A stretch of DNA of 64,000 nt from Ramlibacter sp. (lineage in GTDB: Bacteria; Pseudomonadota; Gammaproteobacteria; Burkholderiales; Burkholderiaceae_C), in the NCBI GenBank assembly GCA_030695945.1, contig JAUYOG010000018.1, positions 1 through 64,000 on the forward strand, in the 5' to 3' direction. Each line of letters begins with the position of its first letter. The stretch's first letter is position 1. Position numbers and translations under genes: made by a program. The notes beneath the pieces are model-generated. The model was not told where the DNA came from, did no database searches, and saw only the letters and a list, made by a program, of their open reading frames with translations. Shown here piece by piece: positions 37,310 to 54,787 of the stretch.

Positions 37310-38503
37310 TCAGCCCGGCCGTCCATCGATGCGGGCCCGCGTCAGGACAGGCCAGTAGCGCACGGCATAGACACCAAACGCGGCGGACCACAGCGCGGCC
37401 GAACAGATAACGGCTTCGATGGCGTGGCCGGGTACCACCAGCGGCACGAACACCCGCACCACGGCAGCGACGAGCACCATGGCGAAACAGGCGACCTCGT
37501 AGCGATCGGCCAGCAGCGGCCGGCCCGTATGGCCGCGCGCCGTCCGCGTCATCATGCCGATGATCAGCCCGCCGATGGCACCCACGGTCAACGCGTGGGT
37601 GGCCGTCGAAAGCGGCAGCACGCCCAGGGCCGCGGCACCCCGCAGCCCCAGGTGAACGGGGATCCACAGGTAAGCCGCATGCAGCACCCAGACGAGCGGC
37701 GCACGCAGTGTCCTCCACGGCTGCCACAATGACCATCGCGCGAGGTGCGCGGCCGCGCAAATGCCCAGCAGCCCGGCAAGCAGGCCACCCGGGAGTTGCA
37801 GCGCGTCGGCCGCCAGCAGCACCAGAGTCGAGCCCAGCGCCAGCTTCTCCAGCCATGCCCGCTTCGTCGCATTCGCGCCCGGCACGCCGTTGTTGGTGAA
37901 CATCGGGATCACCCGGCCGGCCATCACCGACATGATGAAAAGCACCACGTCCAGCCCGATCTGGATGCCGGCCCACCCGGGGAAGCGCACCACGCCCAGG
38001 TGTTCCAGGTGCACGCCCATCACCGCCACCGACATCAGCGCGAGCAGTCCCACGAAAAAGTAGTTGCGCCTGTTGCCCGCGGCGATGAACGGAATCGCGA
38101 GCGCGATGGCCGCTGCCACCGGAAAAGCCGCGTTGACGATCGCCGCGGCCCAGCCGAAAGGCGTCAGGACGAGGACCCGCCCCGCCACCCACAGCGCCGC
38201 GAGTGCCGCCAGGGGCAGGCCCGTCGGTGTCGGCCGGTTCGACCAGTTGCGCCCGGCCGTGAAGAGGAAGCCCACGATCACCGCCACGGTGAAGCCGAAG
38301 AGCATCTCGTGGGCGTGCCACAGGGGCGTCGGCAGGTAGGGACGGCCCAGCCAGCCCGCGAACTGCAGCGCCCACAGGCCGATGGACAACGCGGCGAAGG
38401 TGCTCGCGAGCAGGTAGAACGGACGGAATCCGAGCGCCCACAAGGCAAAGCCTTGCGTTTCAACGGGGCGCGGAGGCTCCTCCAGATGAATGAACTGTGC
38501 CAT
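37310..38503 (-). CDS. nnrS: NnrS-family heme/copper membrane protein
   Basis: 397 residues, about 12 transmembrane segments. LWALGFRPFYLLAS and PLWHAHEMLFGFT are NnrS landmarks. NnrS proteins relieve nitrosative stress. Last gene of the NsrR-controlled operon; starts inside the stop of the preceding gene (ATGA). Confidence 0.92.
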   Translation of the reverse strand: MAQFIHLEEPPRPVETQGFALWALGFRPFYLLASTFAALSIGLWALQFAGWLGRPYLPTPLWHAHEMLFGFTVAVIVGFLFTAGRNWSNRPTPTGLPLAALAALWVAGRVLVLTPFGWAAAIVNAAFPVAAAIALAIPFIAAGNRRNYFFVGLLALMSVAVMGVHLEHLGVVRFPGWAGIQIGLDVVLFIMSVMAGRVIPMFTNNGVPGANATKRAWLEKLALGSTLVLLAADALQLPGGLLAGLLGICAAAHLARWSLWQPWRTLRAPLVWVLHAAYLWIPVHLGLRGAAALGVLPLSTATHALTVGAIGGLIIGMMTRTARGHTGRPLLADRYEVACFAMVLVAAVVRVFVPLVVPGHAIEAVICSAALWSAAFGVYAVRYWPVLTRARIDGRPG

Positions 38504-39648: not shown

Positions 39649-40016
39649 CAGCCCATGAACCGGCGGGCGCGGTCACTCATGCGGTCCATGGTCCAGGGGG
39701 GGTCCCAGACCAGTTCGACATGGACCAGCAGCTCGGGCGGGGCGATCCGGTCCAGCTCCTGCTCGACCTCGTCGACGATCACGTCGGTGACGGGGCACGC
39801 GGCGGAAGTCATCGTGATGAGGACATGGACCTTCTCGGCGTCGACAGTGACGCCATAGATCAGGCCGACGTCCACGATGCTCATCGCGACCTCGGGGTCC
39901 ACCACTTTGGTGAGTGCCGCCAGGATCGGCTGGTACAGCTCTTGCGGCCCTTCGTACGGATAAGGTGGTTTGGGCTCCAGTCCGTTGTCGTCATTGAAGT
40001 CTTCGAGTGTCTTCAT
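39645..40016 (-). CDS. DUF59/MIP18-family Fe-S assembly factor
   Basis: 123 residues. DPEVAMSIVDVGLIYGV and MTSAACPVTDVIVDEVE are family hallmarks, the latter with the conserved Cys. Probably repairs or assembles Fe-S clusters damaged by NO. Overlaps nsrR and the next gene by 4 bp each. Confidence 0.9.
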   Translation of the reverse strand: MKTLEDFNDDNGLEPKPPYPYEGPQELYQPILAALTKVVDPEVAMSIVDVGLIYGVTVDAEKVHVLITMTSAACPVTDVIVDEVEQELDRIAPPELLVHVELVWDPPWTMDRMSDRARRFMGW

Positions 40017-40483
40017 GCGGTCCTCCGCGTTGGGGGCGGCGCCACGGGATGCATGCCGAACATCACCTTGGCCAGTGCTTGCCGGTTGTGCACCAGGTCG
40101 GCCAGCGTGTATTTGTCCAGCACGGTGTAGAAGGCCTTGACGGCCTCGCCCAGCACACCGCTCAGGCGACAGATGCCGGCGATGGAACAATGGCCGCCGT
40201 CCTCGCCGAAGCACTCGGCGGGCACGGCCGCGCCCTCGGTATGGCGCACCACCTGGCCCAGGCCGACCAGCTCGGGCGGCATCGCCAGCTCCAGCCCCCC
40301 ACCCTTGCCCCGCACGTTGGCGAGCCAGCCGTTCTTGCCGAGGAAGTGCACCACCTTGGTCAGGTGGTTCTCGGAGACGTCGAAAGACGTCGCGATCTGC
40401 GCGATGGTGGCGCGCTGCCCGGGTTGCGCGGCGAGGTAGATCAGCACGCGCAGGCTGTAGTCGGTGAAGGCGGTGAGTTTCAT
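40013..40483 (-). CDS. nsrR: Rrf2-family NO-sensing repressor NsrR
   Basis: 156 residues. Winged helix, then Cys91, Cys99, Cys105 (ECFGEDGGHCSIAGICRL) for the [2Fe-2S]/[4Fe-4S] cluster that NO destroys. Represses NO-detoxification genes. It lies in the operon it is predicted to control (operator at 43457-43480). Confidence 0.93.
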   Translation of the reverse strand: MKLTAFTDYSLRVLIYLAAQPGQRATIAQIATSFDVSENHLTKVVHFLGKNGWLANVRGKGGGLELAMPPELVGLGQVVRHTEGAAVPAECFGEDGGHCSIAGICRLSGVLGEAVKAFYTVLDKYTLADLVHNRQALAKVMFGMHPVAPPPTRRTA

Positions 40484-40832: not shown

Positions 40833-43109
40833 TCAGGATTGGGCCGTTGCCGCTCCCTCGATGGCCGGCGTGCGGCCGGCGGCCGGGCGCCTCAGCAGGC
40901 GCAGCGCGTACACCGCTAGGATGGCGGCGCCGATGGCGAAGACGATGTCGCCCGGCACCCGCATCCACACCAGCGTTTCCATCACCGGCGAGTGGATGAT
41001 CTCGGGCGAGCGTGCGAACCACAGGCCCTTGCTGATGCTGGCCCAGGCCTGGTAGATGCCGGCCGGCAGCAGCGACATGAAGACCATCATCGCCAGGCCG
41101 ATGTTCAGGCCCCAGAAGGCGGGCTTGAGCAGGTTGTCGGCGTGCAGGTGGCGCTCGTAGAGGCCGCGCAGGCAGAACAGCATCAGGCCGATACCCAGCA
41201 TGCCGTACACGCCGAACAGGGCCGCGTGGCCGTGGGCCGCCGTCATGTTCAGGCCCTGCACGTAGTACAGCGCGGCCGGCGGGTTGATCGCGAAGCCCAG
41301 CAGGCCCGCGCCCACGGTGTTCCAGAAACCGACGGCGACGAAGCACATCACCGGCCACTTGTAGGCGGCGAGCCACGGCGCGCTCTTGCTGCGGCGATAC
41401 GTCTGCAGCGCTTCCAGGCCGATCAGCGTGAGCGGCACCACTTCCAGCGCGGAGAACACCGAGCCGACGGCGATCACCGAAGTCGGCGTGCCGGTGAAGT
41501 ACAGGTGGTGCAGCGTGCCCAGGATGCCGCCGAACAGGAACACGATGGTTTCCGCCACGATGGCGCGGTTGGCGCTCTCGGGGCGCACCAGGCCGATGCG
41601 GGTGAAGATCAGCGCGATCACGGCGGTGGCGAACACTTCGAAGAAGCCCTCCACCCAGAGGTGGACCAGCCACCAGCGCCAGTATTCGACCATGGAGTAG
41701 TGCGTGCCCTGGCCCCAGGTGAGCGAGGTCGCGTAGAAGCCGCCGATGCAGGTGGCCGACAGGAACACCATGGCGATCAGGCCGCGGGACTCCGACGGCT
41801 TCATCAGCGCCGGCCACAAGGCGCGGCCGAGCAGGAGCGCCCAGAACAGCAAGCCGATGAACAGCAGGATCTGCCAGACGCGTCCCATGCTCGTGAACTC
41901 GAGGCCCTGGTTGCCCAGCCAGAAGCTGAAGTCGACACCGTTGCGCTGCAGCGTCCCGATCCAGCCGGTCGCGGTGGAGCCAACGACGATGGCGATCAGC
42001 GCCCAGAACAGCACGTCCACGCCGAGCTTCTGGAACTTCGGTTCCTTGCCCGAGAGCAGCGGCGCGATGTACAGGCCCGTGGCCAGCCAGGCGGTGGCGA
42101 TCCAGAAGATGCCGACCTGGGTGTGCACGGTGCGGCTGACCACATACGGCAGCACTTGTGCGAGCGGGATGCCGAAGAACGACTGCCCTTCGACGGCGTA
42201 GTGCGCGGTGACCACGCCCATGCCGATCTGCAGCAGGATCAACCCGACCACGGCGAAGAAGTACTTGCGCGTGGCTTTCATGGAAGCCGTCGCGGGGGCG
42301 TTGAACAGCGGGTCGGCCTTGGGCGCGCGCGCTTCTTCCTCGTGCTTCGTGCTGCCGTGCAGCCACAGCATGGCGGCGATGCCGGCGAGCAGCAGGATGA
42401 TGCTGACCATCGACCAGATGGCCGACGACGTCGTGAGCGTGTTGCCCACCAGCGGCTCGTGCGGCCAGTTGCTGGTGTAGGACAGGTCGGTCTCGCCCGG
42501 CCGGTCGGTGGCCGCGGCCCACGAAGTCCAGAAGAAGAACGCCGTGAGGGCCTTGCGGTCGGCGGCGGCAGGCAGCGCGTCTTCGCTCATCGCGTACTGG
42601 TCGCGCAGCTTGGACAGCGTCTGGTCGGTACCGAACAGGCCGTCGTAGTGGGCCGCGACTTCGCGGATCGCCTGGGCACGCTCGGGCGATACCGTGATGG
42701 TGTCCTTGGCCTTGTCGTACGTATTGCCGCGCATTTCCTCGCGCATCACGGCGGCGACCGCGGCGCGATCGGCCGTGGAAGGTTCACCGGTGGTCTTCGA
42801 ATGCTGCTTGGCGCGGATCGCCTGCAGCGCGACGGCTTCACGGTGCAGCCAATCGGCGGACCAGTCCGGCGCAACGTAGCTGCCGTGGCCCCAGACGCTG
42901 CCGAGTTGCTGGCCGCCCGTGGACCGCCATGCCTGCTGGCCGTACTGGATCTGCTCGCCGGTGAAGAGAACTTCGCCCTCGGTCGTCACGACCGCCTTGG
43001 GGATGGGCGGCGCCTCGAGGTAGATCTGCCAGCCCAGGTACCCGAGTGCCCCGAACGACAGCACGAAGATGAGGCCCAGCCAGCGCCAGAGCCTTGCGGT
43101 GCTTTTCAT
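40833..43109 (-). CDS. norB: Quinol-dependent nitric oxide reductase
   Basis: 758 residues, the single-subunit qNOR form: N-terminal extension (about 1-220) fused to the heme-copper core. FeB and heme ligands appear in VHLWVEGFFEV, GTLHHLYFTG and AAHGHAALFGVYGM. Reduces 2 NO to N2O using quinol. ATG 43109 chosen. Flanked by two DUF2249 genes; first enzyme gene of an NsrR/FNR operon. Confidence 0.95.
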   Translation of the reverse strand: MKSTARLWRWLGLIFVLSFGALGYLGWQIYLEAPPIPKAVVTTEGEVLFTGEQIQYGQQAWRSTGGQQLGSVWGHGSYVAPDWSADWLHREAVALQAIRAKQHSKTTGEPSTADRAAVAAVMREEMRGNTYDKAKDTITVSPERAQAIREVAAHYDGLFGTDQTLSKLRDQYAMSEDALPAAADRKALTAFFFWTSWAAATDRPGETDLSYTSNWPHEPLVGNTLTTSSAIWSMVSIILLLAGIAAMLWLHGSTKHEEEARAPKADPLFNAPATASMKATRKYFFAVVGLILLQIGMGVVTAHYAVEGQSFFGIPLAQVLPYVVSRTVHTQVGIFWIATAWLATGLYIAPLLSGKEPKFQKLGVDVLFWALIAIVVGSTATGWIGTLQRNGVDFSFWLGNQGLEFTSMGRVWQILLFIGLLFWALLLGRALWPALMKPSESRGLIAMVFLSATCIGGFYATSLTWGQGTHYSMVEYWRWWLVHLWVEGFFEVFATAVIALIFTRIGLVRPESANRAIVAETIVFLFGGILGTLHHLYFTGTPTSVIAVGSVFSALEVVPLTLIGLEALQTYRRSKSAPWLAAYKWPVMCFVAVGFWNTVGAGLLGFAINPPAALYYVQGLNMTAAHGHAALFGVYGMLGIGLMLFCLRGLYERHLHADNLLKPAFWGLNIGLAMMVFMSLLPAGIYQAWASISKGLWFARSPEIIHSPVMETLVWMRVPGDIVFAIGAAILAVYALRLLRRPAAGRTPAIEGAATAQS

Positions 43110-43143
43110 GATTGCCTTTCCTTGAATGCTTTTTTTCGAGATC

Positions 43144-43431
43144 TCATTGCCCGCCGCAGGAACCGCAGCACTGGCCATTGCTGTGGGGGTCTCCCAGCTT
43201 GCTGATGGCGACGCGCCAGGTGTCGGGACCCTGCTCCAGGTACTCCCACGCGAACTTGCCGGGGTACTGGGCCTGGAAGACGTTGCGCAGCGGCTTGGGA
43301 TCGTGGTCGTTGACCAGTTCCAGCGCGCCGCCGGCCGCAAGGCCCGCGAAAGTCGAGAAGATGAGCGAATGGCGCTGTTCGCATGCGAGCGCGCGAACGT
43401 CGATCCGGGTGGGGGTTGCAGCTTGGGTCAC
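43144..43431 (-). CDS. DUF2249 protein with Cys-rich tail
   Basis: 95 residues. DUF2249 core (IDVRALACEQRHSLIFSTF, LVNDHDPKPL) plus a tail GQCCGSCGGQ with three Cys, which could bind a metal or Fe-S cluster. First gene of the norB operon. Confidence 0.87.
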   Translation of the reverse strand: MTQAATPTRIDVRALACEQRHSLIFSTFAGLAAGGALELVNDHDPKPLRNVFQAQYPGKFAWEYLEQGPDTWRVAISKLGDPHSNGQCCGSCGGQ

Positions 43432-43592: not shown

Positions 43593-44000
43593 ATGCCATC
43601 TGCCTCACATTTCGACCAGCTCCTGAAGGCCGCCGCCGCGCAGCCCGACCCGCAACGCCTGCTTTTCGTCTTCGCGCAGGCCGAGCTGCCGGAGGGCGCG
43701 ACCGAGGAGCAAAGGAAGAATTTCGTCGCCGGCAAGGGCGGCGCGCTGACGCCCCTGGCCTGCGTCGACAAGGCCCCGGCCGACCTCTCGACCTTCGATG
43801 CGCTGGTGGACGAGTCCCGCAACGCGTGCCCGCCCTGGCAGGTGCTGTTCGTCGCCGCGCTGGCGGGGCAGGACGGCAAGCCGCCCTCGACAGCCCTGGT
43901 GGACAGCGCACTGCACGCGATGGTCGAGGCCGTGAAGGCGGGCCGATTCGGCAGCTACATGGCGCTCTCGCCAAACGGCGAGCCGCTGGTCATGTCCTGA
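43593..44000 (+). CDS. Conserved hypothetical protein
   Basis: 135 residues from ATG 43593 (GTG 43575 possible). FDQLLKAAAAQPDPQRLLFVFAQAELP and PLACVDKAPADLSTFDALVDE define a small family sometimes labelled ribonucleotide reductase alpha in databases; I see no reductase motif. Its end overlaps the ctaA end by 46 bp, convergently. Confidence 0.75.
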   Translation: MPSASHFDQLLKAAAAQPDPQRLLFVFAQAELPEGATEEQRKNFVAGKGGALTPLACVDKAPADLSTFDALVDESRNACPPWQVLFVAALAGQDGKPPSTALVDSALHAMVEAVKAGRFGSYMALSPNGEPLVMS

Positions 44001-44965
44001 CCCGGTGTGGCCTGCGAAGCCGGGCGCCCTCTCCCGGCGGCAAGACTGAGCGTCGCGGCCAGCAGCAATGCGGCCACGATGTTGTGGGCCAACGCCGCGG
44101 GCAAAGCCAACGTACCCCGCACCAGCATCACGCCCAGGACTGCTTCGACGGCCAGCAACACCACCAGTGCCGCGCCCATTCGGCGCCCTTGCCTCCAGGA
44201 CACGATCCCCAAGGGCAGCAGCACGGCGAAGACCGCCACTGCGCCCATGCGGTGCAGCCATTGCACGAGGGCACCGGACGGATTCGTCGGCGCCGCCGGA
44301 TCGAAGCCCGGCGCCTGCCACGGATCCAGTGCCTGCCATGACGCGCCCGCCATGTCGCAGCGAGTGAGTTCGGGGCAGCTGAGGCCCGCGTAAGTCGCGT
44401 TCACCATGCCACCCAACGCCACCTGCGTCACCAGCAGTGCGATACCGGCCCACGCCCAGCGCGAAAAGTCCGCGCCACCCGCGACGGGCCTGCGAGCGAG
44501 CAATTCGGCCAGCCGGCAGCTCAACGCGAACATCGCGAACCCGCCGACGAGGTTGCCCAGCACGACGGCAGGGACTTTCGCGTTGGCGGTCCAGCGCCCG
44601 AGGATGGCGAGGAACAGGGCAAGGAACAGCAGCCCGAGCACGATGGTCCCTTCGCGCCGCAGCACCGGCGCCTTCGACCAGGTGTTCATCACCATCACGA
44701 TGATGAGGAGCAGCGCCGCCACCGCGGCGACGCGATGCGAGATGCGCGCGGCCGTCACCAGGCCGGTCGGTGGTGTCACGACGCCTTGCTGCCTGTCCCG
44801 CAGGCTCTGCCCGTAACACTGCGGCCAGGGCTCGCACCCCAGCCCGGATGCCGACAGGCGAAGGAATGCGCTCAGGCTGGTGATGGCCAGGACGAGCACG
44901 GCGCAGGCCAATGCCAATTTCCGCAGTGAGGCCATTCGGCCGATGTCTCCAAACATCCTTTGCAT
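43955..44965 (-). CDS. ctaA: Heme A synthase (COX15/CtaA)
   Basis: 336 residues, eight membrane segments. His-containing stretches ARISHRVAAVAALLL and WLHRMGAVAVFAVLL are the family ligands. Converts heme O to heme A. With cyoE at 47643 it gives this locus a full heme O/A supply. Lies beside the heme-copper operon. Confidence 0.9.
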   Translation of the reverse strand: MQRMFGDIGRMASLRKLALACAVLVLAITSLSAFLRLSASGLGCEPWPQCYGQSLRDRQQGVVTPPTGLVTAARISHRVAAVAALLLIIVMVMNTWSKAPVLRREGTIVLGLLFLALFLAILGRWTANAKVPAVVLGNLVGGFAMFALSCRLAELLARRPVAGGADFSRWAWAGIALLVTQVALGGMVNATYAGLSCPELTRCDMAGASWQALDPWQAPGFDPAAPTNPSGALVQWLHRMGAVAVFAVLLPLGIVSWRQGRRMGAALVVLLAVEAVLGVMLVRGTLALPAALAHNIVAALLLAATLSLAAGRGRPASQATPGQDMTSGSPFGESAM

Positions 44966-45021: not shown

Positions 45022-45035
45022 TTGAGATATATCAA
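45022..45035. promoter_or_regulatory. FNR-type box upstream of the heme-copper operon
   Basis: TTGAGATATATCAA fits TTGAN-N4-ATCAA. A weak -10 (CACGAT, 45058-45063) is centred 32 bp on, which would give a leader of about 28 bases before ATG 45098. Confidence 0.65.
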
Positions 45036-45097: not shown

Positions 45098-45250
45098 ATG
45101 AGCGATGACGACGAGACCGGCAAGGTGCCCCTGGTGCAGCAACTGCTCGACAACCCGTTCCTGCTGTTGTTCCTGGGGGTCCTCATCCCCATGGTGGTGT
45201 ACACGCTGTGGGGTGTCATCGACATCCTGACCATTCCCCTGGCCAAGTAA
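45098..45250 (+). CDS. 50-residue single-span membrane peptide
   Basis: 50 residues with one transmembrane helix (NPFLLLFLGVLIPMVVYTLWGVIDIL). AGGAG lies about 6 bases before ATG 45098. First gene of the oxidase-like operon, likely a small accessory subunit. Not recognised as a named family. Confidence 0.82.
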   Translation: MSDDDETGKVPLVQQLLDNPFLLLFLGVLIPMVVYTLWGVIDILTIPLAK

Positions 45251-45260
45251 GGAGCACGCC

Positions 45261-45800
45261 ATGAGCGCAATTCTTCCGCCGGCGGAACGGCTGTGGTGGA
45301 AACACCCCCTGGACCGCGTCGAAGGCACCTGGATCGCCATCGCCTTCGCCTGGTGCATGGTCATGTTCTTCATGATGATCTACTGGCATGCCTACGGCAA
45401 GCAGAACCTCTCCACCGAGACATACAAGACCACGCCGGAGCAGTTCTCCGCCAAGGCGCAGGCCGTGGTGGACAAGTACACCGTGCGCACCGAGACGGCG
45501 GACAAGATCCCCGTGGTGGCGCCGCCCGAGGGCAGCGATGTGTACCTCGTCGCGCGCCTGTGGGCCTGGTGGCCGATCCTGGAGCTGGAAAAGGGCAAGA
45601 CCTACAAGCTGCACCTGACGGCCATGGACTACAACCACGGCTTCTCGCTGCAGCCCGCCAACATCAACATCCAGGTGGTGCCGGGCTATGAGCACGTGAT
45701 CAAGGTGACGCCCAACCAGTCGGGCACCTTTTCCGTGGTGTGCAACGAATATTGCGGGATCAACCATCACCAGATGGTCGGCCGCATCTACGTGAAATAA
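45261..45800 (+). CDS. Cytochrome c oxidase subunit II-like protein with CuA site
   Basis: 179 residues, one N-terminal transmembrane helix (about 24-43) and a periplasmic cupredoxin domain. CuA ligands are complete: H126, C161, E163 (carbonyl), C165, H169, M172. Shorter than aa3 subunit II (usually two helices), like the compact subunit II of ba3 and sNOR-type enzymes. Accepts electrons for subunit I from cytochrome c or cupredoxin. Confidence 0.92.
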   Translation: MSAILPPAERLWWKHPLDRVEGTWIAIAFAWCMVMFFMMIYWHAYGKQNLSTETYKTTPEQFSAKAQAVVDKYTVRTETADKIPVVAPPEGSDVYLVARLWAWWPILELEKGKTYKLHLTAMDYNHGFSLQPANINIQVVPGYEHVIKVTPNQSGTFSVVCNEYCGINHHQMVGRIYVK

Positions 45801-45811
45801 GGAGGGCCGCA

Positions 45812-47545
45812 ATGTCCGCAACCCTTCCCCTGCCGACCGTTCCCGTGCGCGGCGGCACGACTTACCGCACCTGCCCGCGTTCCGGGCTGCAGTTCGAGGC
45901 CCAGGCCGAGAAACTGATGATCGCCAATGCCGTGATCGCCGTGGTCGCCCTGCTCGTGGGCGGCATCCTGGCCATCGGCGTCGTGCTCACGCGCTGGCCC
46001 GCGGTGCACTGGCTCGCCGCCGACACCTTCTACATGGTGCTCACCGCGCATGGCATCGACATGCTGATCTTCTGGATGATCTTCTTCGAGATGGCCGTGC
46101 TGTACTTCTGCTCGTCCACGCTGTTGCGATGCCGCATCGCCACCCCCTCGATGGCTTGGCTGGCGCTGGCGCTGATGCTGATCGGGGCGGTCATGAACAA
46201 CGTCGCCGTGTTCCAGGGCGGCTCCAGCGTGATGATGACGTCCTACGTGCCGATGATGGCCGCGCCCACGTTCTACCTCGGCCTCATCCTCTTCGCCGTC
46301 GGCGCGCTGATCGGCTGCTTCGTGTTCTTCGGCACGCTGGTGATCGCCAAGCGCGACAAGACCTACGAGGGATCGGTCCCGCTCGTCACGTTCGGCGCGA
46401 TCACCGCCGCCATCATCGCGGTGTTCACGATCACGTCCGGTGCGATCATCCTGATCCCCACGTTCCTGATGTCGATCGGACTCGTGAAGTCGGTCGATCC
46501 GCTGGTTTACCGCACGATCTGGTGGGCCTTCGGCCACTCCTCCCAGCAGGTCAACGTCGCGGCGCACATCTCGATCTGGTACGCAGTGGCGGCCATCTGC
46601 TTCGGCGCCAAGCCGATGTCCGAGCGCGTGAGCCGCGGCGCCTTCCTGCTCTACATCCTGTTCCTGCAACTGGCCAGCGCGCACCACCTGCTGGCCGACC
46701 CGGGCATGTCCACCAGCTGGAAAATCGTCAACACGAGCTACTTCATGTATTTCGCCGTGCTGGCATCGATGATCCACGGCCTCACCATTCCGGGGGCGAT
46801 CGAGGTGGCGCAACGCGCCAAGGGCTTCAACAAGGGGATGTTCGAGTGGCTGCGCAAGGCGCCATGGGGCAACCCGGTGTTCTCGGGCATGTTCATCTCG
46901 CTGATCGGCTTCGGCTTCCTGGGCGGCATCTCGGGCGTGATGATGGGGACCGAACAGCTGAACATGCTGATCCACAACACCATCTACGTGCCGGGCCACT
47001 TCCACGCCACCGTGGTGGTGGGCACCACGCTGTCGTTCATGGCGCTGACCTACTTCCTGATCCCCGTGTTGTTCCGCCGCGAGATGATCGTGCCGGGCCT
47101 GGCCAAGCTGCAGCCCTACCTGTTCGGCCTGTCCATGTACTTCTTCTGCCTCGTGATGATGGGTGCCGGAACGCTGGGCGTGTCGCGCCGCCACTGGGAT
47201 ATGGCGCTGACCGGCGCCGCCCTGGGCTACGAATGGCCGGGCGCCGCCTACCTCATGATGGCGCTGGTGGGGCTGGCGGGCGTCGCCGCCATCGCAGGCG
47301 GCGGGCTCTACATCTACATCACGGTGGGTTCGCTGCTGTGGGGCAGGAAGCTGGATACCGGCAAGGTGAGCCCGACGTTCACGCCGATCCCCCGCACGGC
47401 GCCGAGCGGGGTGGTGCAGACCTACGGTTCGGCCGGGTTCGCGGCGCCTGGGACCTTCATGCTGGCGATGCTGTTCCTGGTGGCCTTCGTGCTGTACTAC
47501 TTCATCAACTGGAAGTACCTCGGCCAGCTCTGGGGCCTGAGCTGA
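45812..47545 (+). CDS. Heme-copper oxidase-type subunit I lacking the cross-link tyrosine (sNOR-like)
   Basis: 577 residues, 12 or more transmembrane segments. Ligands present: low-spin heme H80 and H398, high-spin heme H396, CuB H242, H291, H292. Helix VI reads GHSSQQVN, so the position four after H242 is Gln246 instead of the Tyr of GHPEVY. Loss of the Tyr is expected in nitric oxide reductase-type members such as sNOR of nitrifiers, which also pair with a CuA subunit and SCO. I therefore suspect NO reduction, but O2 reduction is not excluded. Confidence 0.85.
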   Translation: MSATLPLPTVPVRGGTTYRTCPRSGLQFEAQAEKLMIANAVIAVVALLVGGILAIGVVLTRWPAVHWLAADTFYMVLTAHGIDMLIFWMIFFEMAVLYFCSSTLLRCRIATPSMAWLALALMLIGAVMNNVAVFQGGSSVMMTSYVPMMAAPTFYLGLILFAVGALIGCFVFFGTLVIAKRDKTYEGSVPLVTFGAITAAIIAVFTITSGAIILIPTFLMSIGLVKSVDPLVYRTIWWAFGHSSQQVNVAAHISIWYAVAAICFGAKPMSERVSRGAFLLYILFLQLASAHHLLADPGMSTSWKIVNTSYFMYFAVLASMIHGLTIPGAIEVAQRAKGFNKGMFEWLRKAPWGNPVFSGMFISLIGFGFLGGISGVMMGTEQLNMLIHNTIYVPGHFHATVVVGTTLSFMALTYFLIPVLFRREMIVPGLAKLQPYLFGLSMYFFCLVMMGAGTLGVSRRHWDMALTGAALGYEWPGAAYLMMALVGLAGVAAIAGGGLYIYITVGSLLWGRKLDTGKVSPTFTPIPRTAPSGVVQTYGSAGFAAPGTFMLAMLFLVAFVLYYFINWKYLGQLWGLS

Positions 47546-47550
47546 AATGA

Positions 47551-47633
47551 AAGCTCCCCCCCGAAGCGCCTTCGGCGCCTCCCCCTCAAGGGGGCGCCAC
47601 CAGCGGCCCGGCGAAGCCGGTTCCGCGGTGGCC
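47551..47633. repeat. Comamonadaceae-type palindromic repeat
   Basis: Multi-hairpin GC-rich repeat (CGCCTTCGGCG, CCCTCAAGGGGG, CCGGCGAAGCCGG) between the subunit I and cyoE genes, ending in CGCGGTGGCCC. I recognise its pattern from other Comamonadaceae genomes. The cyoE frame is open through it, but the homologous start is downstream. Confidence 0.7.
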
Positions 47634-47642
47634 CACGCTGGA

Positions 47643-48509
47643 ATGACCATGCGGCTGGCGCGCGACGTCCTCTCCCTGTTCAAGCTGCGCATCGGCATGC
47701 TGATCATGGTGACGGCGCTGGTGGGCCTGGCGGTGACGCCGGGCGCATCGCTCGGCGCTGTCCAGGTCCTCGTGCTGGCGCTGTCGGTGCTGGTGGCGTC
47801 GGCCAGCGCCGGCGCCTTCAACCAGTATGTCGAGCACGACAGCGACCGGCTGATGGCACGCACCCGCAAGCGCGCCTTCGTCACCGGGGCGCTGCCGCAC
47901 CATCCGGGCTGGCTGCTGCTGATCGGCGTCATGCTGGCCGGCTCCGTCGCGGCGGCCTGGTACTCGCTCAACGCCATGGCGGCGATGTATGTTTTCCTCG
48001 GCGCGTTCTTCTACGCCGTCGTGTACACCGTATGGCTCAAGCAGCGCAGTGCGTGGAACATCGTGGTCGGGGGTCTCGCCGGCAGCTTCGCCGTGCTGGC
48101 CGGCGCGGCCGCGGCGGACCCGACGCCCGGGCCCCTGCCGCTGCTGGTTGCGCTCGTGCTGTTCCTCTGGACGCCGCCGCACTTCTGGAGCCTGGCGATC
48201 GCCAACCGTGCGGACTATGCCGCGGCGGGCGTCCCCATGTTGCCGGTGGTGGTGGGTACCGAGCGAGCCGCCTGGATCGTGTTCTACAGCACCGCCGCGC
48301 TGGTGGCGGCATCGCTGCTGCCGCTCGCCTTCGGCGCGGGCCCGGTCTATGCGCTGGGCGCGGCCGGCGGCGGCATCCACTTCCTGCGCAAGTCGTGGCA
48401 GCTCGCCCGGTACCCTGAGCGCAAGACCGCGATGGGCTCGTTCTTCGCATCCCTCATCCAGCTGAGTGCGTTGCTGGTCGCGGCCACCGTCGACGGCCTG
48501 TTGCGCTGA
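47643..48509 (+). CDS. cyoE: Protoheme IX farnesyltransferase (heme O synthase)
   Basis: 288 residues, UbiA-type prenyltransferase with about nine helices. NQYVEHDSDRLMARTRKRA is the NxxxDxxxD-type motif (Glu at the first acidic position); a second Asp motif ANRADYAAAGVPMLP follows. Makes heme O from heme B. ATG 47643 chosen. Also called ctaB. Confidence 0.93.
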   Translation: MTMRLARDVLSLFKLRIGMLIMVTALVGLAVTPGASLGAVQVLVLALSVLVASASAGAFNQYVEHDSDRLMARTRKRAFVTGALPHHPGWLLLIGVMLAGSVAAAWYSLNAMAAMYVFLGAFFYAVVYTVWLKQRSAWNIVVGGLAGSFAVLAGAAAADPTPGPLPLLVALVLFLWTPPHFWSLAIANRADYAAAGVPMLPVVVGTERAAWIVFYSTAALVAASLLPLAFGAGPVYALGAAGGGIHFLRKSWQLARYPERKTAMGSFFASLIQLSALLVAATVDGLLR

Positions 48510-48528
48510 AGGAGCGGAGAAGTACGCG

Positions 48529-49380
48529 ATGCGATTTCCGCACCTGCGCGCATCGACGTCCAAGGCGGCGGCCCTCCTGTGGGCCGCCGTTGCCTTTTTG
48601 CCGCCGCTGCAGGCGCAGGAGGCGCCACACCGCCCCGGGCTGGAGGCGAAGTCGGCGTACGCCGCCAGCCAGCAGGCGATAGGCCGCACGATCGGCGATT
48701 ACACCTTGACGGATCGCGAGGGGCGGCCGGTGCGGCTCGCCTCCTACCGCGGCAAGCCCTTGCTGGTGAGCTTCATCTACACCGGCTGCTTCGAAGTCTG
48801 CCCAACCACCACGCGCGCGCTGAACGACACCGTGCGCGCGCTGCAGGGCCGGTTCGGCACCAACCAGTTCCATGTGGTCAGCGTCGGCTTCAACCAGCCG
48901 GCGGACTCGCCCCAGGCGATGAAGGCCTTCGCGGCCCAGCACCGCATCAGCCAGCCGAACTGGGACTTCCTCAGCCCGCCGCCCGCGATCGTCGGGCCGC
49001 TGACGCGAGACTTCGGGTTCGTCTACCAGGCGACGCCTGCGGGTTTCGACCACGTGCTGCAGGTGTCGCTGGTGGATGGCGAGGGCCGCATCGTGCGCCA
49101 GGTGTACGGCGATCGCCCGGCCGCCGATGCGTTGGGCGAGCCCATGAAGCAACTGCTGGTCGGCGCGCCGCTGCCGCAGGCCACCGCGCTCGAAACCATC
49201 ATCGACCAGATCCGCCTGCTGTGCACGGTGTACGACCCCAAGACCGGCGCCTACCGGGTGGACTACAGCCTCGCGATCGAGGCGGCCGGGGGGCTGACTT
49301 TCATCATCGCGGTCGCGCTGTACATGTTCAACGAGTGGCGCTCGCGCCGGCGCGCGCGCCGCCACGGGCGCCCGGCCTGA
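48529..49380 (+). CDS. SCO1/SenC copper chaperone
   Basis: 283 residues. Signal segment (about 12-30), thioredoxin fold with CFEVC (C87, C91) and H175 as copper ligands, and an unusual C-terminal transmembrane helix (about 253-272). Delivers copper to CuA of subunit II. AGGAG lies ahead of ATG 48529. Confidence 0.92.
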   Translation: MRFPHLRASTSKAAALLWAAVAFLPPLQAQEAPHRPGLEAKSAYAASQQAIGRTIGDYTLTDREGRPVRLASYRGKPLLVSFIYTGCFEVCPTTTRALNDTVRALQGRFGTNQFHVVSVGFNQPADSPQAMKAFAAQHRISQPNWDFLSPPPAIVGPLTRDFGFVYQATPAGFDHVLQVSLVDGEGRIVRQVYGDRPAADALGEPMKQLLVGAPLPQATALETIIDQIRLLCTVYDPKTGAYRVDYSLAIEAAGGLTFIIAVALYMFNEWRSRRRARRHGRPA

Positions 49381-49390
49381 ACGGATCGCG

Positions 49391-50938
49391 ATGCAGTACA
49401 CACTCCCCGGCCGGCATGGCGTCCAGCAGGTGTACCAGCAACTGGAGCACGCGTTCGACCGGGCGTTTGGCGGCAGGCTCAACCCGCTCAAGCACCTCGG
49501 GGCGGTGGCCTTCCTGCTGTTCTGGCTGCTCGCGCTCAGCGGCGCGGTGCTGTACGTCATGCTCGACATCTCGGCCGGCGGCGCGTATCGCTCGATCGAG
49601 GAGTTCTCGCGCGACACCGCGAGCCCGGGAAGCATCCTGCGCGGCCTGCATCGCTACTCGGCGGACGGGTTCATCGCCGTCGCCGTCGCGCACCTCGCCC
49701 GCGAATGGCTGCTCGGCCGCTTCAATGGATTTCGCCGCTTCTCGTGGCTCACCGGGGTGCCGCTGCTGCCGCTGGCGTTCGTCTGCGCCATCGGCGGCTT
49801 CTGGCTGAACTGGGACCGCCTCGGGCAATACTCGGCCGTCGCCACCGCCGAGTGGCTGGACGCGATGCCCTTCCTTGCGTCACCGCTGGCACGCAACTTC
49901 CTGGGCGGAGCGGTGAACGACCGCCTGTTCTCGCTCTTCGTCTTCGTGCACATCGGAGTTCCACTGCTGCTGGTGTTCGGGCTGTGGTTCCACATCCAGC
50001 GCATCGCCCGCGCGGAAGTGTTCCCGCCGCGCGCGCTCGGCATCGGCACGGCGGTGACGCTGCTGGCCATGGCGCTGGCGCTGCCGGTGCGCAGCCAGGG
50101 GCCGGCGGACCTCGCCACGGTGCCCGGCCCGCTGGCGCTGGACTGGTGGCTGCTGTTCATCCATCCGCTCACGGCGGCGACATCGGCGGGGTTCGTGTGG
50201 GCGCTCGTCCTGGGCTCGGTCGCCGGCCTGGTCGCACTGCCGTTCCTGCGGCCGCGCGTGCCGCGGGCCGTGGCCAGGGTGGATTCCGCTCACTGCAACG
50301 GCTGCCGCCGCTGCGCGGAAGATTGCCCTTATGCCGCCATCGCGATGGTCCCGCACCCGAATGGCCGGCGCGGCGTCCAGCTGGCGCGGGTCGATGCGGA
50401 CCTCTGCGCGAGTTGCGGCATCTGCGTGGGCTCCTGCCCTTCATCGACGCCGTTTCGCAGCACCGAGCGCCTGGAGACCGGCATCGACATGCCGCAGTGG
50501 CCCATCGATGCGCTGCGCCGCCGCCTCGAGACTCAGCTCGCGGCCGCGCGTGGCGCTCCCTGCTTCGTCGTGTTCGGCTGCGACCACGGTGCGCGCATCG
50601 ATACCCTGGCGTCACGCGACACATTGACGTTCAGCCTGGCGTGCACGGGGATGCTGCCGCCCTCGTTCGTCGAATACGCTTTGCGCGGCGGCGCGGACGG
50701 CGTCGTCGTTGCCGCTTGCCGCGAGGGCGGGTGCGAGTTCCGGCTGGGCGAGCGCTGGACGGCGCAGCGCCTGGGCGGCGAGCGCGAGCCGCACCTGCGC
50801 CGCGCGGTACCGGCGGATCGCTGGGCCTTCGCCCCCGCGAACACGGGTGACGAGGCCGCCGTGCGTGCCGCACTCGAGCGCCTGCGCCGCTTCGCCCGCG
50901 CCGATTCCCCGCCCAGGCGGCAAGGGGCCATCGCATGA
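49391..50938 (+). CDS. Cytochrome b fused to dicluster ferredoxin and MvhD-like domain
   Basis: 515 residues. Residues about 1-210: cytochrome b N-terminal four-helix region with heme His pairs H87/H187 and H101/H201. Residues 302-312 and 339-349: two CxxCxxCxxxCP [4Fe-4S] motifs. Residues about 388-470: a domain like the hydrogenase delta subunit MvhD, with C397, C418, C443, C448. MvhD passes electrons to heterodisulfide reductases in methanogens. This fusion could move electrons between a soluble donor and the membrane. Starts 10 bp after the SCO gene. Confidence 0.85.
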   Translation: MQYTLPGRHGVQQVYQQLEHAFDRAFGGRLNPLKHLGAVAFLLFWLLALSGAVLYVMLDISAGGAYRSIEEFSRDTASPGSILRGLHRYSADGFIAVAVAHLAREWLLGRFNGFRRFSWLTGVPLLPLAFVCAIGGFWLNWDRLGQYSAVATAEWLDAMPFLASPLARNFLGGAVNDRLFSLFVFVHIGVPLLLVFGLWFHIQRIARAEVFPPRALGIGTAVTLLAMALALPVRSQGPADLATVPGPLALDWWLLFIHPLTAATSAGFVWALVLGSVAGLVALPFLRPRVPRAVARVDSAHCNGCRRCAEDCPYAAIAMVPHPNGRRGVQLARVDADLCASCGICVGSCPSSTPFRSTERLETGIDMPQWPIDALRRRLETQLAAARGAPCFVVFGCDHGARIDTLASRDTLTFSLACTGMLPPSFVEYALRGGADGVVVAACREGGCEFRLGERWTAQRLGGEREPHLRRAVPADRWAFAPANTGDEAAVRAALERLRRFARADSPPRRQGAIA

Positions 50939-51438
50939 CCAAGGTGTCGACCTGGGTGGGGCAGGCCATCCTGTACGCCGTCTTCGCGATCGTGATCGGC
51001 GTGTTCTCGGGCTGGCCGGCGTACCGCGCGTTGCCTGCCGACCAGGCGATGCTCAAGGTCAGCTTCATCCATCACGGGCAGCGCGTCGCCGATTGCCGCC
51101 CCTTCACCGCCGAGGAACTCGCGAAGCTCGCGCCCAACATGCGCACGCCCATGAAGTGCGGGCGGGAACGCTCGCCCGTGACGATCGAAGTGGACCTCGA
51201 CGGGGTCAACATCTACCGCCAGGTCGCCGCGCCGTCGGGCCTCTCGCGCGACGGCGCGTCGTCGGTGTACCACCGGCTGCAGCTTCCGGCCGGCGAACAC
51301 CGGATCGCGGTGCGGCTCAAGGACAGCGCGGCGCCGGGCCCGTTCAACCACACGCGCGACGCGACGGTGAAGCTTCGCCCCGCGCAGATCCTCGTCATCG
51401 ACTTTGACGCGGAAAAAGGAGGGATTACCCTGTCATGA
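50935..51438 (+). CDS. Membrane-anchored periplasmic protein of unknown function
   Basis: 167 residues, one N-terminal helix (about 9-27), then a beta-rich domain with C54 and a second Cys in TPMKCGRE. Overlaps both neighbours by 4 bp. Layout resembles FixH-like accessory proteins, but I do not assign it. Confidence 0.75.
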   Translation: MTKVSTWVGQAILYAVFAIVIGVFSGWPAYRALPADQAMLKVSFIHHGQRVADCRPFTAEELAKLAPNMRTPMKCGRERSPVTIEVDLDGVNIYRQVAAPSGLSRDGASSVYHRLQLPAGEHRIAVRLKDSAAPGPFNHTRDATVKLRPAQILVIDFDAEKGGITLS

Positions 51439-52877
51439 GCGCCATCCCCACCCTCCCCTTGCCGACCCGCGTCGCGGTGCCGGCGCCGGCCCAGTCAGGC
51501 GCCGAGTACCGGCTTTCGGTGCCGCACGATGCGCGCGTCGAGCTGGCCCGCGGCTGGCTGTGGCTCGGCATGGCGGCACTGGTCGGCTCCGGGCTCTTCT
51601 CCATCCTGCTGGTGCTTTCGCGCACGCCGGGCCTGAACCGCCTGCTGCCGGTCGCCGACCTGTTCCATGTCGCGCTGGTGGTGCACGTGGACCTGTCGGT
51701 GCTGGTGTGGTTCATGGCGCTGGCCGGCATGCTCTGGAGCCTGAATGGCGCGCCGCGCTTCATGGCGTTGGGCCGGCTCGCGCTGGGGCTCGCCGGCGCA
51801 GGCACGGCCGCGATGGCGCTGTCCGCCTTCACCGGCGCCGGGGAGCCCATCATGGCCAACTACATCCCCGTGCTCACGGCGCCGCTGTTCATGGCGGGCC
51901 TGCTGATGTTCGCCGCAGGCGTCGGCCTGCTGGTGCTGCTGAGCCTCGTCAACGCGCCCCGCCTGGGGCTGGGTTTCGACGGCGCGGGCGCGCTGCGCTT
52001 TGGCCTGAACGCGGCGGCAGTGGCGACGGCCGTCGCGCTGTTGGCCTTCGGCTGGTCGTACGCGGTGCTGCCATCTTCTCTCAGCGGCAAGGCCTATTAC
52101 GAGATCCTGTTCTGGGGCGGCGGCCACGCCCTGCAGTTCACGTGGACGCTGCTGATGCTCGTCGCGTGGCTCTGGCTGGCGGGCGACTGCGGCGCCCGCA
52201 TTCAACTCAGCCCGCGCGTCACCGTGCTGATGTTCGCCCTCGCGCTGGCCAGCGTCTTCATCACGCCCTATGCGTACCTGGCCTACGACATCGCTTCGGT
52301 CGAACACCGCTCGCTCCTGACCTGGGCCATGCGGCTGGGCGGAGGCGTGGCGATCGTGCCGGTCGCCCTGGCGGTGGTTTTCTCACTGGCCGGTGCGCCG
52401 CCCGCACATGCCGCGGCCCGGCCGCTGCGCGCGGCGCTGCTGTCCTCGGTGGGGCTGTTCGCGGCCGGCGGGCTGATCGGCATCTTCATCAACGGCAGCA
52501 ACGTGCGCATTCCCGCGCACTACCACGGCTGCATCGTAGGCGTCACGCTGGCGCTGATGGGCCTGGTCTACAAGCTGCTGCCCGCCCTGGGCTACCGCGC
52601 GCCGGAGGGCCGCCTCGCGACCGTGCAGCCCTGGCTGTACGCGGCGGGGCAGCTGATGCACATCCTCGGCCTGGTGTGGTCGGGCGGGTACGGCGTACAG
52701 CGCAAGGTGGCGGGCGCCGAGCAGGTGCTGCGCACGCCTTCGGAAGTGGCCGGCATGGGCCTGATGGGCCTGGGCGGCGCGATCGCGATCGTCGGCGGGC
52801 TGCTGTTCATCGTGGTGGTGTTGCAAGCCGTCCGCGGGCCCCGGGTTCCAATAATGGTGCGGGCGGCGCCACGATGA
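51435..52877 (+). CDS. Divergent heme-copper-oxidase-like subunit I without helix-VII CuB histidines
   Basis: 480 residues, about 12 membrane segments. Helix II FHVALVVHVDLS (H84), helix VI GGGHALQF (H231, Q234) and helix X IPAHYHGCIVG (H362, H364) align with the subunit I at 45812 (H80, GHSSQQ, VPGHFHATVVVG). Where that protein has H291-H292, this one reads PYAYLAYD, so two of three CuB ligands are absent. It may keep hemes but lack a normal active site, acting as a partner subunit or a different enzyme. Confidence 0.75.
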   Translation: MSAIPTLPLPTRVAVPAPAQSGAEYRLSVPHDARVELARGWLWLGMAALVGSGLFSILLVLSRTPGLNRLLPVADLFHVALVVHVDLSVLVWFMALAGMLWSLNGAPRFMALGRLALGLAGAGTAAMALSAFTGAGEPIMANYIPVLTAPLFMAGLLMFAAGVGLLVLLSLVNAPRLGLGFDGAGALRFGLNAAAVATAVALLAFGWSYAVLPSSLSGKAYYEILFWGGGHALQFTWTLLMLVAWLWLAGDCGARIQLSPRVTVLMFALALASVFITPYAYLAYDIASVEHRSLLTWAMRLGGGVAIVPVALAVVFSLAGAPPAHAAARPLRAALLSSVGLFAAGGLIGIFINGSNVRIPAHYHGCIVGVTLALMGLVYKLLPALGYRAPEGRLATVQPWLYAAGQLMHILGLVWSGGYGVQRKVAGAEQVLRTPSEVAGMGLMGLGGAIAIVGGLLFIVVVLQAVRGPRVPIMVRAAPR

Positions 52878-54787
52878 AGGGCCTGCAGTCGCTGCTGCAA
52901 TGGGTGTTCATGCGGGTGGAAGCGGTGTTCAACGCCGCTTTCGGCGACCGGCTCAATCCGCTGTACCACCTGGGCGCGATCAGCTTCTTCCTGTTCTGGG
53001 TGGTGGGCGTGAGCGGCCTGTACCTCTACGCCTTCTTCGAGACGGGCGTGGCGCAGGCGTACTCGTCGGTGCAGGCGCTGACGCATGACCAGTGGTTCGC
53101 GGGCGGCATCATGCGAAGCGTCCACCGCTACGCGTCCGACGCGATGGTGATGACCATGCTGATCCACATGGTGCGCCACTTCGCGTTCGACCGCTTCCGC
53201 GGGTTCCGCTGGTTCTCCTGGATCACCGGCGTCGCGCTGATCTGGCTGGTGTACACCTCCGGCATCAATGGCTACATGTTGCCCTGGGACAAGCTGGCGC
53301 AGTTCGTGATCGTCGCCAGTTTCGAGTGGGTGGACTGGCTGCCCACGTTCGGCGGCACGCTGATGCGCAACTTCATCCACCCGGGCAGCGTCGGCGACCG
53401 CTTCTTCTCGCTGCTCTCGTTCGTGCACATCGGCCTGCCGTTGCTGGTGTTGCTGCTGATGTGGGTCCACGTGCAACGCGTGCCCAAAGCCCGCACCTCG
53501 CCGCCGCGTCCCATCGTATGGAGCCTGCTGGCGACGCTGCTCGCGCTGTCGCTGGCGCAGCCGGTGCTGAGCCAGGGTGGCGCGGCCGACCTCGGCGTGG
53601 CGGCCCAGAACCTTCGGCTCGACTGGTTCTACCTGGCGCTCCTGCCCTTGGTCAACGACTGGCCCCTGGGCCGGGTCTGGGCGCTGGCCGCGGGCGGAAC
53701 GGCGCTGCTCGCGCTCCTGCCGCTGTGGCCGCGGCGCTTCGGGCGCGCAGCCAGGACGGCCGGGCACCACGCCGTGGTCCACGGCGCCGCCGGGTTCCAG
53801 GCCCAGATGGTCTTGCGCGAGGGCGAGACGTTGCTGGAAGCCGGGCTTCGCGCGGGCCTGGCCCTGCCCTACGAATGCCGCAACGGCGCCTGTGGGGTCT
53901 GCATCTGCAGCGTCGAGCACGGCGCAGTGACCCATCGGCCTTACCAGCCCGGCGCGCTGCCGGATGCGATGAAAGCCCGCGGCAAGGCGCTGATGTGTTG
54001 CGCGGTACCGTCCGGTGATGTCGTGATCGACGTGGAGGGACTCGAAGCGGCGAGCACCGCGCAGAAAGTTCACACCGGCCGCGTGGTGGCGCTCGAGCGG
54101 CTGGCCGAAGACGTGATGCGCGTGCAGATCGCCTTGCCGGACGAAGGACCGCTGCAGTTCATCGCCGGCCAGTACATCAATATCGTGCTCGAGGACGGCG
54201 CGCGGCGCGCCTTCTCCTTTGCCAATCCGCCCCACCAGAACGACGTGATCGAATTGCACGTGCGACGCATCCCTGGCGGCCGATTCACCGGCCATGTGTT
54301 CGAGGGCATGCGCCTGGGCGACACGGTGCGCTTCGAAGGCCCGCTCGGCAGCTTCGCGCTGCAGGACAGCGACCGCCCCATCCTCTTCGTCGCCGGCGCA
54401 ACGGGATTCGCGCCGGTGAAGAGCATCGTCGAAGACGCGTTCCATCGCGGCATCCGCCGGCCGATGCGGCTGTACTGGGGCGTGCGCCGCCGGCAGGATC
54501 TGTACCTGCTCGATGTGGCCGAGGGCTGGCAGCGGGACCACCCCCAGTTCACGGTCGTGCCGGTGCTGTCGGAGCCGCAGCCAGAGGACGACTGGCACGG
54601 TCGCACCGGCCTCGTGCACGAAGCCATGCTCGCCGATGCCGGCGACCTCGCCGGCCAGGAGGTGTATGTCTGCGGGTCGGTGAAGATGGTCGAGGCCGCC
54701 GTGCCGGCCTTCATGGACCACGGCCTGGCCGATGGCGCCTGCTACACCGACGCCTTCCTGCCATCCACGGCGTTACAGGCCCCGTGA
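52874..54787 (+). CDS. Cytochrome b fused to [2Fe-2S] ferredoxin and FAD/NAD reductase
   Basis: 637 residues. Residues 1-205: cytochrome b with H84, H98, H185, H199. About 300-390: plant-type ferredoxin with C335, C340, C343 and C375 (CRNGACGVC). About 395-637: ferredoxin-NAD(P)+ reductase with RAFSFAN (FAD) and VAGATGFAPVKS (NAD). Predicted path is NAD(P)H to FAD to [2Fe-2S] to heme b. This gives the operon its own reductant input. Overlaps the preceding gene by 4 bp. Confidence 0.87.
   Translation: MKGLQSLLQWVFMRVEAVFNAAFGDRLNPLYHLGAISFFLFWVVGVSGLYLYAFFETGVAQAYSSVQALTHDQWFAGGIMRSVHRYASDAMVMTMLIHMVRHFAFDRFRGFRWFSWITGVALIWLVYTSGINGYMLPWDKLAQFVIVASFEWVDWLPTFGGTLMRNFIHPGSVGDRFFSLLSFVHIGLPLLVLLLMWVHVQRVPKARTSPPRPIVWSLLATLLALSLAQPVLSQGGAADLGVAAQNLRLDWFYLALLPLVNDWPLGRVWALAAGGTALLALLPLWPRRFGRAARTAGHHAVVHGAAGFQAQMVLREGETLLEAGLRAGLALPYECRNGACGVCICSVEHGAVTHRPYQPGALPDAMKARGKALMCCAVPSGDVVIDVEGLEAASTAQKVHTGRVVALERLAEDVMRVQIALPDEGPLQFIAGQYINIVLEDGARRAFSFANPPHQNDVIELHVRRIPGGRFTGHVFEGMRLGDTVRFEGPLGSFALQDSDRPILFVAGATGFAPVKSIVEDAFHRGIRRPMRLYWGVRRRQDLYLLDVAEGWQRDHPQFTVVPVLSEPQPEDDWHGRTGLVHEAMLADAGDLAGQEVYVCGSVKMVEAAVPAFMDHGLADGACYTDAFLPSTALQAP

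Follow-up and report, generated by a model that had tools for sequence, protein, structure and literature searches.

A nine-gene operon of Burkholderiales encodes a putative eNOR-type nitric oxide reductase together with two cytochrome b redox fusions and a CuB-less subunit I paralogue

The eNOR-type nitric oxide (NO) reductases were reportedly described by Hemp and Gennis in 2008 and by Murali et al. in PNAS in 2024. Three papers (PMC8756737, PMC11388526, PMC4653789) portray eNOR as a B-lineage heme-copper subunit I with a Gln at the site of the catalytic Tyr, a CuA-type cupredoxin subunit II encoded directly upstream, and a link to nitrite reductase, which in Ardenticatena is NirK (PMC4653789). 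According to PMC8756737 the residue at the Tyr site marks the class (Gln for eNOR, Asn for sNOR and Asp for gNOR), and eNOR is said to be commonly annotated as an ordinary cytochrome oxidase. Here we describe a nine-gene operon (positions 45098–54787, + strand; genes g1 to g9) in a 64,000-nucleotide stretch of a Ramlibacter-type genome, the whole of which we call the window. The operon shares these eNOR features; unlike the described eNORs, it adds a cytochrome b–ferredoxin/MvhD fusion (g6), a cytochrome b–reductase fusion (g9), a small protein (g7) and a subunit I paralogue lacking CuB (g8), all in one operon. Judging from the sequence, we see about an even chance that the operon specifies an eNOR-type NO reductase with an electron-input branch of its own, fed through g6 and g9. 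The eNOR core is already known. The g6–g9 module in company with eNOR is undescribed among the open-licence matches listed; the article by Murali et al. lies outside that literature and may show the operon.

Several other systems share parts of this gene set. The sNOR of ammonia oxidisers (norSY-senC-orf1) likewise has a CuA subunit, a Tyr-less subunit I and an SCO/SenC protein, as at the sNOR-like locus L149 (COX2 and SCO1-SenC by Pfam), but its Tyr site is occupied by Asn (motif GHVFIN both in L149 and in L008, a second subunit I of the window genome) and it falls on another branch of the subunit I tree; the 4.3-kb stretch available for L149 holds four such genes and no fusion. The ba3-type (B-family) oxygen reductases are alike in fold and in CuA, but they retain the Tyr (9/9 rows) and form a separate clade. 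A further likeness to this operon is that ba3 enzymes have a glutamate close to where subunit II begins, as well as a small subunit of one helix. Cytochrome b6 and the ExtP/ExtQ-type cytochromes b are similar to g6 and g9 in sequence and in their four His ligands, arranged as two H-x13-H pairs, but g6 and g9 are fused to redox domains and tied to eNOR. Finally, CcoG and the PepSY_TM protein CrpH are membrane reductases linked to heme-copper genes (PMC13038864); unlike them, neither g6 nor g9 has a PepSY_TM or CcoG match in Pfam or among the best 25 NCBIfam matches listed.

All nine open reading frames (ORFs) of the operon are intact in the ORF list of the window. From g1 to g6 they are separated by 10, 11, 97, 19 and 10 bp, and thereafter g6/g7, g7/g8 and g8/g9 each overlap by 4 bp. 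The first-pass annotation had read the nine same-strand genes as one operon, and the ORFs, the spacing and the recurrence of the gene set bear this out; because the set recurs across many genomes, the arrangement is not a chance one. It had also placed a repeat before cyoE (g4). The GC-rich gap of 97 bp is there (47546–47642), but no sign of a dispersed repeat was found: the core of the stretch occurs once in the window, where no inverted repeat of at least 12 bp was reported. The stretch is absent from the sister contig L030 of a Ramlibacter sp. metagenome-assembled genome, in which the gap is about 13 bp and g8 is 92% identical to that of the window, and the length of this gap varies among relatives.

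The heme-copper core is encoded by the first three genes. Subunit I (g3, COX1; 45812–47545) aligns to ba3 oxidases, which are also its best matches in the PDB, and retains all six His ligands of the hemes and CuB. In the helix-6 motif GHSSQQ, the Tyr position is occupied by Gln246; Gln is found there in 101 of 105 distinct rows, and the four rows with Tyr (L091, L182, L222 and L223) are other oxidases. Directly upstream lies subunit II (g2, Pfam COX2; 45261–45800) with a complete CuA site (H126, C161, C165, H169 and M172), each ligand being conserved in 103 or 104 of 104 distinct rows. The 50-residue single-helix protein g1 (45098–45250) has no Pfam or NCBIfam family and is a candidate small subunit, found at 83/83 tallied loci including Thermus and Thermomicrobium plasmids. 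By these residues g2 and g3, with g1, are predicted to form a CuA-bearing B-lineage heme-copper enzyme in which the catalytic Tyr is replaced by Gln. Two eNOR features, Gln in place of the cross-linked helix-6 Tyr and a CuA-type subunit II directly upstream, are both present here.

In an IQ-TREE phylogeny of 64 subunit I rows, which has long branches and does not include the published eNOR sequences of Rhodothermus and Natronomonas, g3 and the Thermus and Thermomicrobium plasmid proteins form one clade (support 99/98) with Gln in 25/25 g3 rows. The nine ba3 rows, PDB enzymes among them, form a separate clade (100/98). The likeness to sNOR drawn in the first-pass annotation did not hold, since g3 carries the eNOR marker Gln and the sNOR-like proteins are placed elsewhere on the tree: L149, from a genome of an amoA-bearing family, pairs with L008, and both have Asn. 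We also set aside g3 as a gNOR, which has Asp at the Tyr position, and as a B-family oxygen reductase, which has the conserved active-site Tyr. A search run without a positive control gave no g3 match at 1e-10 among 81 genomes from the amoA-bearing family, presumably Nitrosomonadaceae; such an empty result carries little weight. L008 itself (G000:C43:41064–42386) has a NirK gene (L243) on its own contig at a distance of about 19 kb. As it is a separate sNOR-like subunit I, the window genome carries a qNOR, an sNOR-like enzyme and an eNOR-type enzyme.

The electron-input branch would begin with two multidomain cytochromes b. In g6 (49391–50938) a diheme cytochrome b is joined in one chain to an FlpD/MvhD domain and a pair of [4Fe-4S] motifs; in g9 (52874–54787) it is fused to a BenC-like [2Fe-2S]-FAD-NAD(P) reductase with Fer2, FAD and NAD domains (Pfam and NCBIfam for both). 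Their cofactor sites are well conserved. All four heme-ligand His of g6 are present in 94/94 distinct rows and its 12 cluster Cys in 97/97; the four His of g9 are each found in 79 to 81 of 81 rows, the remainder being gaps, and its four cluster Cys in 84/84, with the FAD and NAD(P) motifs retained. Positively charged loops, judged by eye, suggest that the redox domains of both proteins are cytoplasmic; the simple hydropathy scan used here misses some b6 helices and is no proof of that placement. Of 817 records from a plasmid search with g9, 15 rows were listed; 14 of these matched the reductase domain, and the other was the Defluviimonas cytochrome b.

Both proteins resemble cytochrome b6, and g6 also has a weak ExtQ-like stretch after its cytochrome b. 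As b6-type proteins normally meet quinol, the two cytochromes b might instead oxidise quinol at a Qo-like site, sending electrons both to CuA and NO and down to ferredoxin or NAD+, in a quinol-driven system running partly in reverse. We consider this very improbable. By our estimate the low-potential branch would lie far above NAD+ if ubiquinol were the donor and the acceptor of CuA type, no Rieske protein is found among the nine genes by Pfam, and the P-E/D-W-Y/F motif is absent from g6 and g9.

The fusions and the core travel together. We examined 250 genomes of the order, a sample in which co-occurrence is independent of the loci that were collected with g8 as the query. A g3 of at least 68% identity is present in 19 of them, and a g8 of at least 51% in exactly those 19. 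Full-length g9 accompanies it in 18 and g6 in 17 (in two pieces in G237); 16 have both and none has neither. The association of fusion with g3 has a Fisher p of about 1e-27. The tie between fusions and oxidase genes proposed in the first-pass annotation is upheld by this sample: fusions apart from these oxidase genes turned up in 1 of the 231 genomes that lack the operon and at 1 of 80 g8-seeded loci. In the 19 genomes with g3 either fusion may be missing but never both, which suggests that g6 and g9 could stand in for each other as inlets to one enzyme. Distant sequences also occur, with a g3-like protein at only 27% in G139 and additional distant copies of g3 and/or g8 in G069, G190 and G228, and in drafts such as G088 the operon genes are split over separate contigs.

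A second tally, made up mostly of loci collected with g8 as the query, began with 125 loci; removing 3 duplicates, 22 that had no full g3 and 17 whose flanks were short left 83. All nine genes are present at 53 of them. The gene g7 (50935–51438) is found at 76, always with g6 and/or g9 (76/76), and encodes 167 residues of an unnamed family with one helix, a soluble domain that we take as periplasmic, and a Cys pair (C54/C75). It has no match in Pfam or NCBIfam at 0.001; at looser thresholds the best Pfam match has an E of 0.005 and the best PDB match an E of 0.19, the PDB matches being mostly antibody constant domains, and we discarded these as noise or a generic beta-sandwich. At L089 and L092, g7 occurs twice per operon, one copy adjoining each cytochrome b fusion. 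Gene order changes by blocks, as g6-g7-g8-g9 or g9-g7-g6-g8. At L200 (G724:C34), g3 is 90% identical to that of the window and g8 just 59%, with the alternative gene order, which we regard as a sign that the g6–g9 block can be swapped.

The remaining member of the module, g8 (51435–52877), is a second subunit I. It matches Pfam COX1 weakly, above the cut-off, has the fold of the heme-copper superfamily by profile similarity and heme ligands, and aligns to the g3 profile over nearly its full length (hhalign probability 99.8%). H84, H231, H362 and H364 are conserved in 95/95 distinct rows. Of the helix-7 CuB pair, the first His is missing in 95/95 and the second in 90/95, with mostly Ala/Ile and Tyr in their places. 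We dismissed a second active site or catalytic heme-copper subunit as the role of g8, since it does not have the full set of three CuB His; it is probably a two-heme subunit without catalytic activity. Of the two heme-copper-type subunits that the first-pass annotation had counted, g3 stands and g8 is a paralogue that lacks CuB ligands. A Gln three residues past the helix-6 His is common to g8 (98/98 rows) and g3 (104/108 rows), which fits descent of g8 from an eNOR-like ancestor; on the tree g8 is sister to g3 with weak support (96/67) and a long stem. At the position compared with the gNOR Asp marker, g8 has Phe235 in 98/98 rows. The g8 profile has no PDB match at 0.01, no match in plasmids and no relative in viral contigs, where there were three pattern matches.

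A heme site without CuB could bind NO, and g8 might on that ground be an NO-binding sensor or an NO sink, with the cytochromes b serving another enzyme. Four orphan g8 relatives, which lie amid cytochrome c assembly genes with no homologue of g1–g7 or g9 in their stretches, would suit such a role. Nevertheless g8 and the fusions accompany eNOR throughout the order sample, and we hold this account to be very improbable. The orphans (L218, L219, L220 and L221) are 639–715 residues long as called and 39–47% identical; three of the four have retained a His at the second position of the helix-7 pair. Pfam finds Cytochrom_C_asm at all four loci examined, and L218 also has ResB, an ABC transporter and CcmF.

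Upstream of the operon lies an FNR/Dnr-type box, TTGAGATATATCAA (45022–45035, + strand), which starts 76 bp before g1 and has one mismatch to TTGATNNNNATCAA. A box with at most one mismatch within 200 bp before g1 is present at 43 of 99 distinct loci, the window included and duplicates removed; before de-duplication it was seen at 45 of 101 loci, against 0.9 expected from Markov shuffles. Three genes farther upstream, all on the – strand, are related to NO: a qNOR, that is, a NorB with a fused c-like domain (40833–43265; Pfam PF22085 and PF00115), an Rrf2-family regulator with NsrR as its best match (40016–40483; above the Rrf2 superfamily cut-off and below that of NsrR), and NnrS (37313–38503; Pfam PF05940). 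The box proposed in the first-pass annotation is confirmed and recurs before the operon elsewhere, and the low-oxygen, NO-related setting it had sketched agrees with the box and with these neighbours.

The operon also keeps company with nitrite reductases. A strong match to the cd1 family (E <1e-140) was found in 17/19 operon genomes and in 15/59 genomes without the operon, with a cut chosen after the list had been inspected, a family matched weakly in many others, and comparison genomes that were not random picks. The window genome has no strong cd1 match and two NirK above the cut-off. Since none of the other 18 operon genomes has NirK at 1e-30, G158 has neither enzyme. The cd1 gene lies about 10 kb or less from the operon in G080, G176, G097, G113 and G150, and a member of the cd1 cluster is in the flank of 26/106 loci (Pfam checks were made on one representative and on L186). 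A Thermus relative has nirS about 3.6 kb away and an adjoining Rrf2 regulator.

These surroundings bear on whether the enzyme is a low-oxygen B-family terminal oxidase rather than an NO reductase. Its B-lineage fold, its CuA site and its ba3-type best PDB matches would fit an oxidase, and another NOR candidate, sNOR, has been argued to perhaps reduce O2 (PMC6967387). However, the Tyr common to O2 reductases is replaced by Gln in nearly all g3 rows, and the operon is tied to cd1/NirK, NnrS, an NsrR-like regulator and the FNR box, so that we give an oxidase little credence. The first-pass annotation had named NO as a substrate, and the Gln, the separation of g3 from the ba3 oxidases and the denitrification gene context all favour it. 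NO reduction by g3, for which both the residue and the gene context speak, is likely, and it is the better-supported half of the mechanism proposed here.

In that mechanism, low O2 and NO production would turn the operon on through FNR/NO-type regulators. Reduction of the inner heme b would draw on NAD(P)H at g9 and on ferredoxin, or else a thiol/HdrA-like donor, at g6, and g3 would convert 2 NO to N2O. Electron delivery by g6 and g9 is inferred from the domains they contain, their probable topology, and the way they co-occur with the core and replace each other. The protein g8 would be a duplicated eNOR-like subunit I that lost CuB and now acts as a two-heme conduit or a structural partner. 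The boldest form of this reading is a membrane NAD(P)H/ferredoxin:NO oxidoreductase, a short respiratory chain encoded entirely by one operon, in which the fusions feed eNOR directly, with quinone and bc1 bypassed and g8 as a two-heme wire; we offer it tentatively, as a possibility somewhat short of even.

A number of observations weigh against an eNOR with its own electron input. The eNOR-type assignment of g3 comes from the marker residue and a tree without published eNORs, and L130, a long-branched Tyr-bearing protein, lies closer than the ba3 clade to g3 and g8 (99/93), so the branching around g3 is not secure. The passage from the inner to the outer heme b across the membrane and on to CuA, through g7, through the two hemes of g8 or through both, is a conjectured path, and beyond its Cys pair, conserved in 108/109 rows, g7 has no other cofactor motif. 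Loci L030–L109 were found with g8 as the query, and co-occurrence of g8 there is not independent; g8 is present at 66 of the 83 tallied loci, always with g7 and a fusion, and is missing at 10 of those 76 where g7 and a fusion occur. Outside the operon, g9 lies about 10–20 kb away in G097 and G176 and on the opposite strand in G160 and G237. A fusion is present without a g3 match in G211 (g9 and a g6 fragment on a contig fragment), and G203 has only a g8-like protein at 39%. At L091, a 10-kb contig without g3 and g7, g6 and g8 adjoin an A-family aa3-type oxidase and a heme O synthase; a transposase piece suspected there has no Pfam match. Seven of the 83 tallied loci (two Thermus, one Thermomicrobium and four others of the phylum) have the core only, with or without g4 and g5, and because g6–g9 are dispensable there, other donors can serve the core.

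The main rival to electron donation by the fusions is a role in assembly. Here g6, g7 and g9 would be an assembly branch that draws on cytoplasmic NADH or ferredoxin for the reduction of heme, disulfides or Cu(II) on the outer side of the membrane; the SCO protein g5 would load CuA, g7 would serve as a thiol carrier or a copper carrier, and cytochrome c or a cupredoxin would feed the eNOR core. Membrane reductases that support heme-copper enzymes do exist, namely CcoG and, as has been proposed, the copper reductase CrpH (PMC13038864). In the window, g6, g7 and g9 come after the heme O synthase g4 (cyoE/ctaB; 47643–48509; NCBIfam TIGR01473, above cut-off) and the SCO1/SenC protein g5 (48529–49380; Pfam PF02630); the core is found without them at some loci, and the Cys pair of g7 would serve such a carrier. 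An assembly role leaves unexplained the two large fusions in 16/19 genomes of the order and the CuB-less two-heme g8 that accompanies them. To our knowledge, other heme-copper operons get by with SCO alone. On balance an assembly branch appears unlikely to us.

On the other side of the operon from g9, a divergent ctaA-like heme A synthase gene (43955–44965, – strand; Pfam COX15-CtaA) precedes g1, and its family cluster is in the flank of 64/106 loci. With g4 and g5 it belongs to families for heme O/A synthesis and copper handling, and together with cyoE it suggests that g3 contains heme A or O. Downstream, the window holds at 55121–60635 genes of anaerobic ubiquinone synthesis, with UbiD and a UbiX-like flavoprotein (Pfam) and UbiT, UbiV and UbiU (NCBIfam); the UbiU cluster recurs in the flank of 11/106 loci.

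Relatives of g8 occur in 432 stretches among 84,980 species genomes, a count in which orphan forms are not separated. By title, most of the 80 top loci in the genome scan are beta-/Burkholderiales; L069, L088, L096, L100, L101 and L108 are titled Lysobacterales, Steroidobacteraceae or Gammaproteobacteria and have the full set of nine genes, apart from L096, where g4 is missing. Among isolates, Comamonas granuli NBRC 101663 (L037) carries the complete operon, and Castellaniella defragrans DSM 12141 (L076) carries it without g4 and g6 at that locus. Another 19 loci, with L200 left out, come from genomes listed as the same phylum and another order: 10 have g6 and g7 without g8 and g9, L197 has g6, g7 and g8, and four are cut by contig ends. 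The remaining four of the 19, L186, L188, L192 and L193, have g1–g3 and g5 only, two of them with g4 as well. On plasmids, Defluviimonas carries g1–g7, Thermus g1–g3, and Thermomicrobium g1–g3 followed by a ctaA-cyoE-like gene.

The operon provides a clear genetic signature for eNOR in Burkholderiales and some other proteobacteria, and with it a testable idea of the electron source of the enzyme. If the fusions do deliver electrons from NADH or ferredoxin directly, denitrifiers would have a quinone-independent route of N2O production, possibly a self-contained machine making this greenhouse gas. Were g8 a conduit, it would be a naturally occurring case in which a heme-copper enzyme has become an electron carrier.

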